Positions 51,970 through 55,766 of a stretch of 64,000 nt of DNA are shown here, in pieces. Origin of the DNA: Syntrophobotulus glycolicus DSM 8271 (lineage in GTDB: Bacteria > Bacillota > Desulfitobacteriia > Desulfitobacteriales > Syntrophobotulaceae); contig NC_015172.1 of NCBI RefSeq assembly GCF_000190635.1, forward strand, positions 434,001-498,000, written 5' to 3'. The translations under genes and the position numbers were made by a program. The notes beneath the pieces are model-generated. The model was given only the letters and a program-made list of their open reading frames with translations, did no database searches and was not told where the DNA came from. Position 1 is the first letter of the stretch; each line of letters opens with the position of its first letter.

Positions 51970-53319
51970 TTGGGAAGACTGTTTGGAACGGACGGAGTAA
52001 GAGGGATAGCGAATAAAGAACTGACAACTGAGCTTGCTTTTCAGTTAGGAAGGGCAGGCGCGTATATATTAGGTAAAAATAAGAAAAAAGTCAGAATTGT
52101 AATCGGGAAAGATACCAGGATATCCGGAGACATGCTGGAGGCCGCTTTAACTGCGGGGATCTGTTCCTTAGGGGCGGATGTTCTTAAAGTCGGGGTGCTG
52201 CCCACGCCGGGCATTGCTTATCTCACCAGGACCCTGCGCGCCGATGCGGGGATTGTAATTTCGGCATCACATAATCCCGCTCAGGATAACGGCATAAAGT
52301 TCTTTTCCCGTACAGGCTATAAACTGCCTGATCATTTGGAAGATGAAATAGAAGCTGCCTTGAATGGCATAGAGGATATTGATTTGCCTGCGGGTGGTGA
52401 TGTGGGCAGGGTGATTGAAGTAGAATATCCCAGGGGACGTTATGGCGAATATCTGAAGACTACGGCAGTAAGTCTGGAAGGATTAAAGGTGGTCATTGAC
52501 TGTGCCAATGGGGCTGCTTCGGAAGTCGCGCCCCGGGTCATGACTGAGTTGGGGGCCGAACTGGTGCCGATCTATCATTACCCAAATGGTGTGAATATCA
52601 ATGTGAATTGTGGCTCAACTCATCCCGAAGCTCTGATTCAGGCAGTTCTGGAAAACAAAGCGGATATCGGCTTGGCTTTCGACGGAGACGCCGACAGGGT
52701 GATCGCTGTTGATGAGAAGGGAAACATCGTTGATGGCGACTGTATCATGGTCATTTGCGCGTTATACCTCAAAGCCAAAGGCCAGCTGAAAGAAGATTCC
52801 GTAACAGTAACGGTGATGAGCAATATGGGGTTGCATAAGGTATTGCGAGAAGCCGGTATTAAGGTATATGAAACAAAGGTCGGGGACCGGTATGTGATGG
52901 AGAAGCTTTTGGAAACAGGCACAGTTTTAGGCGGGGAGCAGTCGGGACATATCATTTTCCGCAATCTCAATACAACCGGGGATGGGATTCTTTCCGCACT
53001 CCAATTGTTAAGAGTCATGAATGAACAGCAAAAGAGTCTTTCCGTACTCGCCACACAAATGAAAAGGTATCCCCAAGTGCTTGTCAATACAAAAGTCCAT
53101 AACAAAGAAAAAGTACTGAACCATGCCGGTTTGGCTGGGAAGATTTCAGAGATAGAGTCCATTCTGGGGGATGACGGAAGGATTCTGGTCCGGCCTTCCG
53201 GTACCGAGCCTTTGATTAGAGTGATGATGGAAGGTTCCGATTCGGAAAAATTGGAAAAACTGGCCGGGGAGGTCATTGACGTGATCTCAAAGATTGATTG
53301 TAAGGAGAAGCAATCCTGA
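51970..53319 (+). CDS. glmM: phosphoglucosamine mutase
   Basis: The 449-residue enzyme converts glucosamine-6-phosphate to glucosamine-1-phosphate for UDP-GlcNAc. The phospho-serine S100 lies in ISASHNP, the Mg2+ site in DGDADR, and [12 protein letters not shown] ends the protein. It starts at TTG 51970 ([12 protein letters not shown]). GlmM is known to bind and restrain CdaA, matching its operon position. A possible promoter and a ribozyme separate it from glmS. Confidence 0.96.
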
Positions 53320-53365: not shown

Positions 53366-53431
53366 TGTCCGGTATGGCATAAAATGCCGAATGATCACAA
53401 TTTCCCGGCATACAATGTATTGTACCGGACA
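53366..53431 (+). repeat. nested inverted repeats between glmM and glmS
   Basis: TGTCCGGTA (53366-53374) mirrors TACCGGACA (53423-53431). Inside lie GGCAT-AAA-ATGCC and the palindrome TACAATGTATTGTA. The right arm overlaps the -35 of the candidate glmS promoter. Confidence 0.6.
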
Positions 53432-53449
53432 GTGAGAGTGAATTATAAT
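53420..53449 (+). promoter_or_regulatory. candidate glmS promoter
   Basis: TTGTAC, 18 bases and TATAAT lie about 125 bases before the ribozyme cleavage site. Confidence 0.5.
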
Positions 53450-53575
53450 AGTAAAGAATATCATCAAGCAAAAATGAAAAGTAAAGGAGATGATGCTTAA
53501 AGGAAGAAGATAGGCAGCGGCTAGCAAAAAAAAATGCGGTGTAAAAAGATTTGGAAATAAAACAAGAAAAATATA

Positions 53576-53740
53576 GCGCCAGAACCTTATCAGGTTGACG
53601 AGGAAGAGGTTAATCGAAAATTTCGGCGGATGCCTCTCGGTGGCTTGTCATCGACAGATCGGTTCCAAAACCGAAAAGTAATTTTTGGGACAAAAGCCGG
53701 TCAGCAAGAGAACGGGACAGTTATGCCTGTTTCCGCTTAT
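53576..53740 (+). ncRNA. glmS ribozyme (glucosamine-6-phosphate-activated)
   Basis: The conserved blocks appear in order: GCGCCAGAAC right after the cleavage site (A53575/G53576), GGTTGACGAGGAAGAGG, ATCGAAAATTTCGGCGGATG and CCTCTCGG, then P3/P4 elements (CCGAAAAG, CGGGACAG). Glucosamine-6-phosphate acts as cofactor for self-cleavage, lowering glmS expression. The 3' limit is approximate. Confidence 0.93.
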
Positions 53741-53803
53741 TATCGGTATACATATTTATGGATTACCGATATTTGCTTAATGATTTTATTTCTTTGTCTT
53801 TGA

Positions 53804-53838
53804 AACCGCCATATACGAAGGCGGTTATTTTATTTTTT
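53804..53838 (+). terminator. intrinsic terminator between ribozyme and glmS
   Basis: AACCGCC and GGCGGTT flank a nine-base loop, followed by ATTTTATTTTTT. It lies 36 bases before the glmS start codon, on the coding strand, so glmS needs readthrough or a promoter downstream. Confidence 0.75.
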
Positions 53839-53874
53839 GATGAAGAATGAGATGTAAAGAGGAGAGAGACTAAT

Positions 53875-55698
53875 ATGTGCGGTATCGTAGGTTATATCGG
53901 GAAACGCCAGGCTGTGCCTGTGCTGATAGACGGTCTGAAAAAGCTTGAATACAGGGGATATGATTCAGCCGGGATCGCGGTTCTTGAGCCTGAAGGGATC
54001 AGATTAGCCAAAAGCGTGGGAAAGCTGGCTGCATTAGAGGAAAGGATCGCCAACAAGACTTTTGATTCTTGTATTGGGATTGGGCATACGCGCTGGGCGA
54101 CACATGGTAAGCCTTCAGATCAAAATGCCCATCCTCATCTGGATTGTAAGGGCAATTTTGCTGTCGTGCATAATGGTATCATTGAAAACTACCTCGAGCT
54201 TCGGGAATGGCTTATCGACAGAGGGCACAGTTTTGTCTCGGAAACAGATACCGAGGTATTGTCCCATCTTGTAGAGGAATATGATGGAGGAGATCTAGAA
54301 GAGGCTGTCCGCAAAACAATTGCCCGGATAGAAGGGTCTTTTGCCATGGTTGTGATGAGCCGGAACAATCCGGGGTGTCTCGTCGCGGCGCGTAAAGCCA
54401 GTCCGATGGTTGTCGGCATTGGTGAAGAAGAATACTTTATTGCCAGTGATATCCCCGCTATCTTAAATCACACTCGCGATACCTATATTATGGAGGACGG
54501 CGAAATTGTGATCATCTCAGACAGCGGCATAAGGTTTACTGACTTTAAAGGCGGGCACAGGGAAAAAATAGTCTTTCAAGTAAGCTGGGACCCTATCTCT
54601 GCTGAAAAAGGCGGATATGAGCATTTTATGCTGAAAGAGATTTTCGAACAGCCCAAAGCGTTGAAGGATACTCTTTCCGGAAGGCTGCAGGATGGTGAGG
54701 TAATCCTGCAGGAAGTAGATCTTACGCCTGAGGACATTCATAATTTTAACAAAGTAGCTATTGTTGCTTGCGGAACCGCTTACCATGCCGGGTTAATTGG
54801 GCGCAAGCTCATTGAAAAATGGGTGAGAATACCGGTCGAAGTGGATATCGCCTCAGAATTCAGGTACAGGGCCCCACTCATCGATGACCGGACCCTGGTC
54901 ATTGTAATCAGTCAATCGGGAGAAACGGCTGATACATTGGCTGCACTCAAGGAATCCAAGCGGCTGGGGGCAAGAGTAATCGCCATAACCAATGTTGTCG
55001 GCAGTTCAGTGGCCAGAGAAGCGGACGATGTGATCTATACCTGGGCTGGTCCGGAAATAGCCGTGGCTTCAACCAAAGCATATACTACCCAGATCGAGGG
55101 AATCGTCCTGCTGGCGTTATACCTGACACAGTCCAAAGGGACCATGCCTGAGGAATGGATAGGAGAGATCATCGGCGAACTGAGAAAAATCCCTGAAAAA
55201 GCGGAAGAAATATTAAAAAATGCTCAGGCGATTGAACAGATGGTCAGTTTGTTTGATGATGTGACAAGTGCGTTTTTCCTGGGAAGGGGCCTTGACTGGT
55301 CAGTTGCGCTGGAAGGGGCGCTGAAGCTCAAGGAAATATCCTATATTCATGCCGAGGCTTATGCGGCAGGGGAACTGAAACATGGTACTCTTGCCCTGAT
55401 TACTGAGCAAACACCGGTTATTGCCCTGGCAACCCAACGCGACCTTTATGAGAAGACTTTGTCCAATATCATTGAAGTAAAGGCCCGTGACGCCAAGGTA
55501 ATCGGGTTTACCTTTGCAGGCAACAGCTCATTTGAAAAAACCGTGGATCAGGTCTTTTTCCTGCCTGATACAGTGAATGAACTCGCCCCACTATTGATGG
55601 TTATCCCTCTGCAGCTTTTATCCTATTATGTGTCGGTAGCAAGGGACAATGATGTGGATAAGCCAAGGAATCTGGCCAAGAGTGTGACGGTGGAGTAA
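53875..55698 (+). CDS. glmS: glutamine-fructose-6-phosphate aminotransferase (isomerizing)
   Basis: The 607-residue enzyme makes glucosamine-6-phosphate, the first step to UDP-GlcNAc. It begins MCGIVGYIGKRQAVP with C2 as glutaminase nucleophile, contains GHTRWATHG, two SIS sugar-isomerase domains (VACGTAYHAG; SQSGETADTLAAL; FLGRGLDWSVALEGALKLKE) and ends in KSVTVE. AGAGGAGAGAG precedes the ATG. Its leader carries a glmS ribozyme and an intrinsic terminator. Confidence 0.97.
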   Translation: MCGIVGYIGKRQAVPVLIDGLKKLEYRGYDSAGIAVLEPEGIRLAKSVGKLAALEERIANKTFDSCIGIGHTRWATHGKPSDQNAHPHLDCKGNFAVVHNGIIENYLELREWLIDRGHSFVSETDTEVLSHLVEEYDGGDLEEAVRKTIARIEGSFAMVVMSRNNPGCLVAARKASPMVVGIGEEEYFIASDIPAILNHTRDTYIMEDGEIVIISDSGIRFTDFKGGHREKIVFQVSWDPISAEKGGYEHFMLKEIFEQPKALKDTLSGRLQDGEVILQEVDLTPEDIHNFNKVAIVACGTAYHAGLIGRKLIEKWVRIPVEVDIASEFRYRAPLIDDRTLVIVISQSGETADTLAALKESKRLGARVIAITNVVGSSVAREADDVIYTWAGPEIAVASTKAYTTQIEGIVLLALYLTQSKGTMPEEWIGEIIGELRKIPEKAEEILKNAQAIEQMVSLFDDVTSAFFLGRGLDWSVALEGALKLKEISYIHAEAYAAGELKHGTLALITEQTPVIALATQRDLYEKTLSNIIEVKARDAKVIGFTFAGNSSFEKTVDQVFFLPDTVNELAPLLMVIPLQLLSYYVSVARDNDVDKPRNLAKSVTVE

Positions 55699-55737
55699 AA
55701 TACCCGATGATGATAACAGAAAGGTAAACCAGATCGG

Positions 55738-55766
55738 AAAAGAGGCATTAGGCGTGCCTCTTTTTG
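55738..55766 (+). terminator. intrinsic terminator after glmS
   Basis: AAAAGAGGC pairs with GCCTCTTTTT around a short loop. Confidence 0.9.

Follow-up and report, generated by a model that had tools for sequence, protein, structure and literature searches.

A predicted cleavage-gated transcription attenuator at the glmS ribozyme of Syntrophobotulus glycolicus

The glmS leader of Syntrophobotulus glycolicus is best explained, and probably correctly so, as a cleavage-gated transcription attenuator. A predicted intrinsic terminator lies between the glmS ribozyme and glmS, a cell-wall gene. A leader strand on the other side of the ribozyme cleavage site is complementary to the linker and the 5′ arm of this terminator, and the predicted helix between them is termed P0. 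The complementarity has coevolved in the class to which S. glycolicus belongs, and the two strands of P0 stand across the cleavage site from each other. In its wider form the reading holds that a self-cleaving ribozyme cuts off its own antiterminator, giving an irreversible, timer-like attenuator that is conserved class-wide and may have evolved anew in other parts of the phylum. We favour this wider form a shade less strongly. The glmS ribozyme is a textbook riboswitch said to act solely by mRNA cleavage and decay. If it works as predicted, the arrangement would be a second and apparently undescribed off-route for this ribozyme.

Ribozyme, terminator and leader strand in S. glycolicus

The window is a 64,000-nucleotide stretch of the S. 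glycolicus DSM 8271 genome (NC_015172.1), and all positions refer to it (Table 1). The ribozyme matches Rfam family RF00234 at 53564–53712 (+) over the full length of the model (positions 1–167 of 167). The match scores 104.4 bits (E = 2e-23), above the curated cut-off of 37 bits, lies 5′ of glmS and carries the conserved GCGCC context, all of which place it in the glmS ribozyme family. Self-cleavage in response to GlcN6P is predicted from this membership. The cleavage position, 53575/53576, is one that we take from established knowledge of glmS ribozymes. The original prediction had the ribozyme run from 53576 to about 53740. Its start stands, 53576 being the G of the cleavage site, and its end was generous: the Rfam model stops at 53712, and P3.1 takes the ribozyme to about 53722.

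Table 1. Features of the glmM–glmS region, in window coordinates
Feature	Position	Strand	Basis or remark
glmM, gene 5′ of the leader	51970..53319	+	ORF, 449 aa; function from sequence recognition, no family search
Probable sigma-A promoter, TTGTAC-18-TATAAT	53420..53449	+	p 0.02–0.07 vs shuffles
SD-like element AAAGGAGATGAT	53483..53494	+	Leader sequence read directly
Antiterminator (AT) strand, 5′ strand of predicted helix P0	53536..53564	+	23 bp with 53781–53809, -23.0 kcal/mol
Ribozyme cleavage site A|G (GCGCC)	53575..53576	+	Rfam alignment; between AT strand and ribozyme
glmS ribozyme	53576..53722	+	RF00234 match plus P3.1 strand; P3.1 end (~53722) by eye
Post-ribozyme hairpin H1, GGGACAG/CTGTTTC	53714..53733	+	Hairpin prediction; same-place hairpin recurs in relatives
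Linker hairpin H2, TATCGGTA/TACCGATA	53741..53771	+	Hairpin prediction
P0, 3′ strand: linker and the ACCGC (5 nt) of the terminator 5′ arm	53781..53809	+	Duplex prediction
Predicted intrinsic terminator	53804..53838	+	Stem 53804–53810/53820–53826, U-tract 53827–53838
glmS Shine-Dalgarno AAAGAGGAG	53856..53864	+	Read directly
glmS, 607 aa	53875..55698	+	ORF beginning MCGIVGYIGK; ATG at 53875

The hairpin and T-run that had been noted in front of glmS are borne out. The arms, AACCGCC and GGCGGTT, enclose a loop of 9 nt and are followed by ATTTTATTTTTT up to 53838. The hairpin has a predicted energy of -11.1 kcal/mol (z -2.9), and dinucleotide shuffling of this gap yields an equally good terminator, by a d'Aubenton-Carafa-type score, in 3 of 400 cases. 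With the hairpin directly before the U-tract and a score that beats shuffles, this is a good predicted intrinsic terminator. A terminator scan with a loop limit of 8 misses it because its loop is one of 9 nt. The distance of 36 nt to the gene is likewise as first described, from 53838 to the ATG at 53875.

Going by the position of the promoter, the leader probably begins at about 53456. TATAAT is kept in relatives of the same family, 94–180 nt 5′ of the cleavage site, with a TGTACC/TATACC-like -35 element at 17 nt; exact TATAAT occurs in 27 of 37 leaders, against 8.3 expected. An interrupted inverted repeat, CCGGTATGGCATAAAATGCCG / CGGCATACAATGTATTGTACCGG, at 53368–53430 overlaps the -35 region of this promoter and is a possible operator. 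Shortly 3′ of the promoter, ~50–100 nt before the cleavage site, a sequence like AAAGGAGGTGAT, almost the entire complement of the 16S 3′ end, recurs in class leaders, with near-matches (p ≤ 0.02) in 16 of 39. It resembles a STAB-SD that may protect the 5′ end of the leader, or may be the start of a cryptic leader peptide; no convincing ORF follows the S. glycolicus copy (53483–53494). At the other end of the locus a strong ordinary terminator, GAAAAGAGGCATTAGGCGTGCCTCTTTTT, stands 3′ of glmS at 55737–55765, consistent with glmS as the end of the transcription unit.

One role for the terminator before glmS would be to block only read-through from glmM, with glmS served by its own promoter 3′ of the terminator. 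Some relatives have more than 100 nt between terminator and ATG, and a few of them have promoter-like sites there. In S. glycolicus, by contrast, 36 nt remain and no convincing promoter is found in them (best score 1.2, p 0.77); several relatives have 32–40 nt. A promoter there had been named at the outset as one of the findings that would refute the added layer. It would also bypass the ribozyme, yet the ribozyme is kept. We regard this explanation as highly improbable.

The AT strand sits 5′ of the cleavage site, and P0 brackets the ribozyme with the cleavage site just inside. P0 is built of the segments GCGGU/ACCGC, AAAGAU/GUCUUU, GGAAAUAAAA/UUUUAUUUCU and CA/UG. Its significance in this one leader depends on the target window (p 0.002–0.10) against shuffled leaders, and lies at p 0.001–0.03 against shuffled targets. 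P0 shares five nucleotides with the terminator 5′ arm (53805–53809), so that conflict between the two helices is confined to GCGGU/ACCGC, and the other 18 of its 23 pairs can form alongside the terminator.

The original prediction also offered coupling of ribozyme folding to readthrough. This part is not upheld: neither terminator arm shows excess complementarity to the ribozyme, to H1 or to the linker, and an antiterminator in these places was rejected. The overlap of aptamer and expression platform that marks a conventional riboswitch is likewise absent from the ribozyme and terminator arms. An extended H1 that overlaps the P3.1 strand, seen by eye in Desulfosporosinus-like members, is not class-wide and was dropped. 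Comparison of the leaders of sister species, the check that had been suggested for an antiterminator, did turn up a predicted one, and it lies 5′ of the cleavage site rather than in the ribozyme. Coupling would therefore run through cleavage, not folding.

Conservation of the terminator and of helix P0

The comparison covered the whole GTDB class with 82 genomes, 65 of which have the ribozyme. A terminator follows the ribozyme in 62 of 65 leaders. The first batch, made up of leaders with a recognised glmS start codon, has a terminator (score >0) in 59 of 62 ribozyme–glmS gaps, where shuffles lead one to expect 4.0; the three members added later (3/3) have an altered GlmS start. In four ribozyme-less genomes of a sister genus the terminator is absent too, and glmM and glmS are spaced by ~25 nt. 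In the rest of the phylum 16 of 99 leaders have a terminator (2.4 expected), most gaps there being merely 20–60 nt. The stems vary by genus (TAGCCGTC/GACGGCTA, GTCGTCC/GGGCGGC, CCGCTT/AAGCGG, CGCC/GGCG and others), and position and pairing are kept. In a Desulfosporosinus-like genus (g12, name inferred) the distance from ribozyme to terminator is 64.4 nt (sd 2.4) and that from terminator to ATG is 123 nt (sd 51). The first is fixed and the second variable, which makes the terminator part of the ribozyme module and not of the start codon. The S. glycolicus hairpin is modest, with 7 bp and a 9-nt loop, as a chance hairpin without a role might be. Against this stand the class-wide count and the shuffles of its own gap, and we give chance next to no credence.

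Across the class, it is the leader 5′ of the ribozyme to which the terminator 5′ arm shows excess complementarity, with the best pairing sites clustered 15–55 nt before the cleavage site. Examples are leader GTGGTTTGAA with TTCAAACCGC (G034), TTAGAGAAAATTTTGGC with GCCAAGATTTTTTCTAA (G027), CGGTTGATCA with TGGTCGACCG (G035), CGTTGTTTCAG with CTGAAACAACG (G025) and TAAAACGGCG with TGCCGTTTTG (G081). The strand sequences are unrelated from genus to genus, and the pairing is preserved. When leader positions -60 to -5 are paired with the linker and 5′ arm, the class mean z is -2.41, with 45 of 64 leaders at p ≤ 0.05. The same leader gives a mean z of -0.16 with an equal stretch 3′ of the terminator and of -0.03 with the ribozyme, and terminator-bearing leaders outside the class also give -0.03. 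Leader and target windows were picked after the pattern was visible; the negative controls, in identical windows, are clean.

By genus, cognate leaders pair better than shuffled leaders (Wilcoxon 9.5e-7; a second genus-level Wilcoxon gives 6.7e-6) and better than the leaders of other genera (4e-4). They also exceed DNA farther upstream in the same genome in 57 of 61 cases. Coevolution was assessed with one member drawn at random from each genus, in a double-centred 21 x 21 energy matrix. The cognate excess is -4.7 kcal/mol, with a permutation p of 5e-5 in all ten draws, and the terminator 5′ arm alone gives a median p of 0.004. Taken part by part, complementarity to the leader holds for the 5′ arm in 19 of 21 genera (p 2.6e-5), fails for the 3′ arm (p 0.7) and is of borderline significance for the linker on its own (p 0.05). 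Of 64 leaders, 63 have a P0 that occupies 3 nt or more of the arm, and in 61 P0 exceeds the terminator hairpin in stability.

The signal is uneven. The family of S. glycolicus (f1) is mixed, being strong in G000, G007, G008 and some of g3 and near zero in g2, G005, g7 and G003. In at least four g12 members (L006, L015, L030 and L130) the strong part of P0 ends short of the terminator arm, and in L002 P0 has no overlap with it. A wide-window duplex test (80-nt leader, 45-nt target) was diluted, with a class mean z of -0.71 and no signal in f1, and was superseded by the tighter windows with their controls. A test of the longest uninterrupted helix gave a weak signal because P0 has internal loops. 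RNAalifold on the concatenated strands yielded no usable consensus. An R-scape-like test of pair-level covariation in 36 aligned sequences found nothing below E = 1; the known ribozyme helices failed it too, hence it had no power.

Outside the class, the 5′ arm alone shows some complementarity (mean z -0.74, n = 20), which reflects a test bias or else additional cases. In three leaders there the terminator 5′ arm finds a partner directly 5′ of the cleavage site: L202 (G377, p 0.010), L232 (G115, p 0.007) and L220 (G156, p 0.04). These leaders are possible independent cases of the same architecture.

Together, a terminator that is conserved in the class and missing where the ribozyme is missing, and a coevolving antiterminator, lend good support to the added layer of attenuation first proposed for this leader. 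As in an attenuator, the predicted antiterminator pairing shares nucleotides with the terminator 5′ arm and is kept by coevolution. With its AT strand 5′ of the cleavage site, this predicted attenuator would be of a cleavage-gated kind.

Predicted folding and the cleavage-gated model

Folding was modelled as pseudoknot-free secondary structure with a placeholder hairpin in place of the ribozyme. Under this model the probability of the terminator in S. glycolicus is 0.63 in uncut RNA, 0.99 in cut RNA and 0.98 in uncut RNA with a shuffled leader. At the stage when the 3′ arm is still to be transcribed, P0 takes up 80% of the 5′ arm, against 40% with shuffled leaders. The terminator probability averages 0.66 uncut and 0.93 cut in the class, and 0.72 and 0.74 in leaders outside it. 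A fold of the whole leader in class members, with no constraints on the ribozyme, which was thus free to misfold, gives 0.67 with the native and 0.88 with a shuffled leader. P0 and terminator are near-isoenergetic in S. glycolicus, the energies of the two competing states being -54.0 and -54.8 kcal/mol, 0.8 apart. The antiterminator is strong in some relatives and weak in others. At equilibrium the terminator still prevails in the uncut RNA of many members, so the switch would need to be kinetic.

The cleavage-gated model would work as follows. The leader with its AT strand, immediately 5′ of the cleavage site, would be transcribed first. When GlcN6P is low, the ribozyme would remain uncut, and the leader strand would capture the emerging linker and terminator 5′ arm. 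The P0 so formed would hinder the terminator hairpin, and RNA polymerase would enter glmS. When GlcN6P is high, the ribozyme would cut co-transcriptionally, ahead of linker synthesis. This would detach the 5′ fragment with the AT strand, leaving the terminator unopposed, and transcription would stop before glmS. Messages that escape, or that are cut later, would still decay by the known route. The leader (strand 2) and the 3′ arm (strand 4) would compete for the linker and 5′ arm (strand 3), and the ribozyme could remove strand 2. We infer that P0 lowers termination, that cleavage outpaces linker synthesis and that control has this sign.

A late cut would leave at least 20 bp holding the fragment, and the decision must therefore be kinetic, with the cut made before the linker emerges. 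Here the linker strand lies ~60 nt beyond the ribozyme end. The B. subtilis glmS ribozyme, as reviewed, cleaves at ~80 per min, starting before its own synthesis is complete (PMC11476745), and at such a rate the timing would be feasible.

The same features could instead belong to an attenuator that is constitutive and partly leaky and fixes basal glmS expression. It would act in series with the ribozyme but uncoupled from it, and P0 would close off the leader/ribozyme domain as a helix that insulates it or lends it stability. The many P0 pairs that tolerate the terminator in S. glycolicus, the placing of P0 mostly in the linker in several members and the frequent preference for the terminator at equilibrium all fit such a device. 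It does not account for complementarity of the 5′ arm, and not the 3′ arm, to the leader in nearly all genera, for a P0 that takes three or more arm nucleotides in all leaders save one, or for a native leader that lowers predicted termination inside the class and not outside it. We judge it unlikely, and the weightiest of the alternatives.

Termination might also be controlled otherwise, by an RNase J1 'torpedo' that chases the polymerase after cleavage, or by a protein or RNA factor on H1 or the SD-like element. RNase J1 does attack the cleaved glmS message in B. subtilis (PMC11476745), and most members have a hairpin 3′ of the ribozyme. Neither version predicts that a terminator arm should be complementary to the leader 5′ of the cleavage site, and we hold both very unlikely.

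Known systems and variants among relatives

The S. glycolicus ribozyme shares family, gene and place in the mRNA leader with the B. subtilis glmS ribozyme (RF00234). There, cleavage is followed by RNase J1 decay, whereas here a terminator and a predicted antiterminator strand flank the ribozyme. As in classical attenuators (trp-type 2:3 versus 3:4, and transcriptional riboswitch platforms), one strand would choose between an upstream partner, giving readthrough, and its own terminator hairpin. In known riboswitches, however, the ligand refolds an aptamer that shares the switch nucleotides; the aptamer here shares none, and the predicted AT strand would be cut off by the ribozyme. The Clostridioides difficile c-di-GMP/group I intron tandem is another case of metabolite-controlled RNA cutting with effects beyond decay. 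Splicing there changes the translation start, unlike the self-cleavage here, which would remove an antiterminator.

TaRTLEt reports no termination at B. subtilis glmS (PMC12121620). A high-throughput survey that used covariation to study the expression platforms of riboswitches (NAR 2026) noted terminators 3′ of glmS aptamers, found no overlap of aptamer and terminator at glmS and judged such control uncommon (PMC13273304). The accession that the survey gives for glmS, RF00083, is GlmZ_SraJ. Its alignment, as described, held the aptamer plus 30–100 nt downstream (PMC13273304), which puts an upstream strand beyond its scope. We found no earlier report of an antiterminator 5′ of the glmS cleavage site in the open-access literature, the main subscription glmS papers lying outside that scope.

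If the model is true, the cut also decides termination in one lineage, which would tighten the off-state, and fast co-transcriptional cleavage becomes the regulatory decision. A pre-folded aptamer could then drive an expression platform without ligand-induced refolding, in a form invisible to downstream-only surveys. It would also offer a design rule for synthetic switches, with an antiterminator strand 5′ of any self-cleaving ribozyme and a terminator 3′ of it.

GlmS relatives are up to 68% identical to the S. glycolicus protein over the full length. In L127 (the second copy of G005), L007 (G008) and L029 (G006), and probably in L150, GlmS begins MGVFGYIG, not MCGIVGYIG. These proteins lack Cys1, the catalytic residue of the glutaminase domain, and are possibly ammonia-dependent; the gene still stands behind a glmS ribozyme and terminator. 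G005 (L002 and L127) has two glmS ribozymes with two glmS-like genes, and each is followed by a terminator of its own. In L062 and L067 (Peptoclostridium, name inferred) the glmS Shine-Dalgarno lies inside a hairpin, TCTCCTTAAA...TTTAAGGAGGA, just 3′ of the ribozyme, which suggests a translational layer there.
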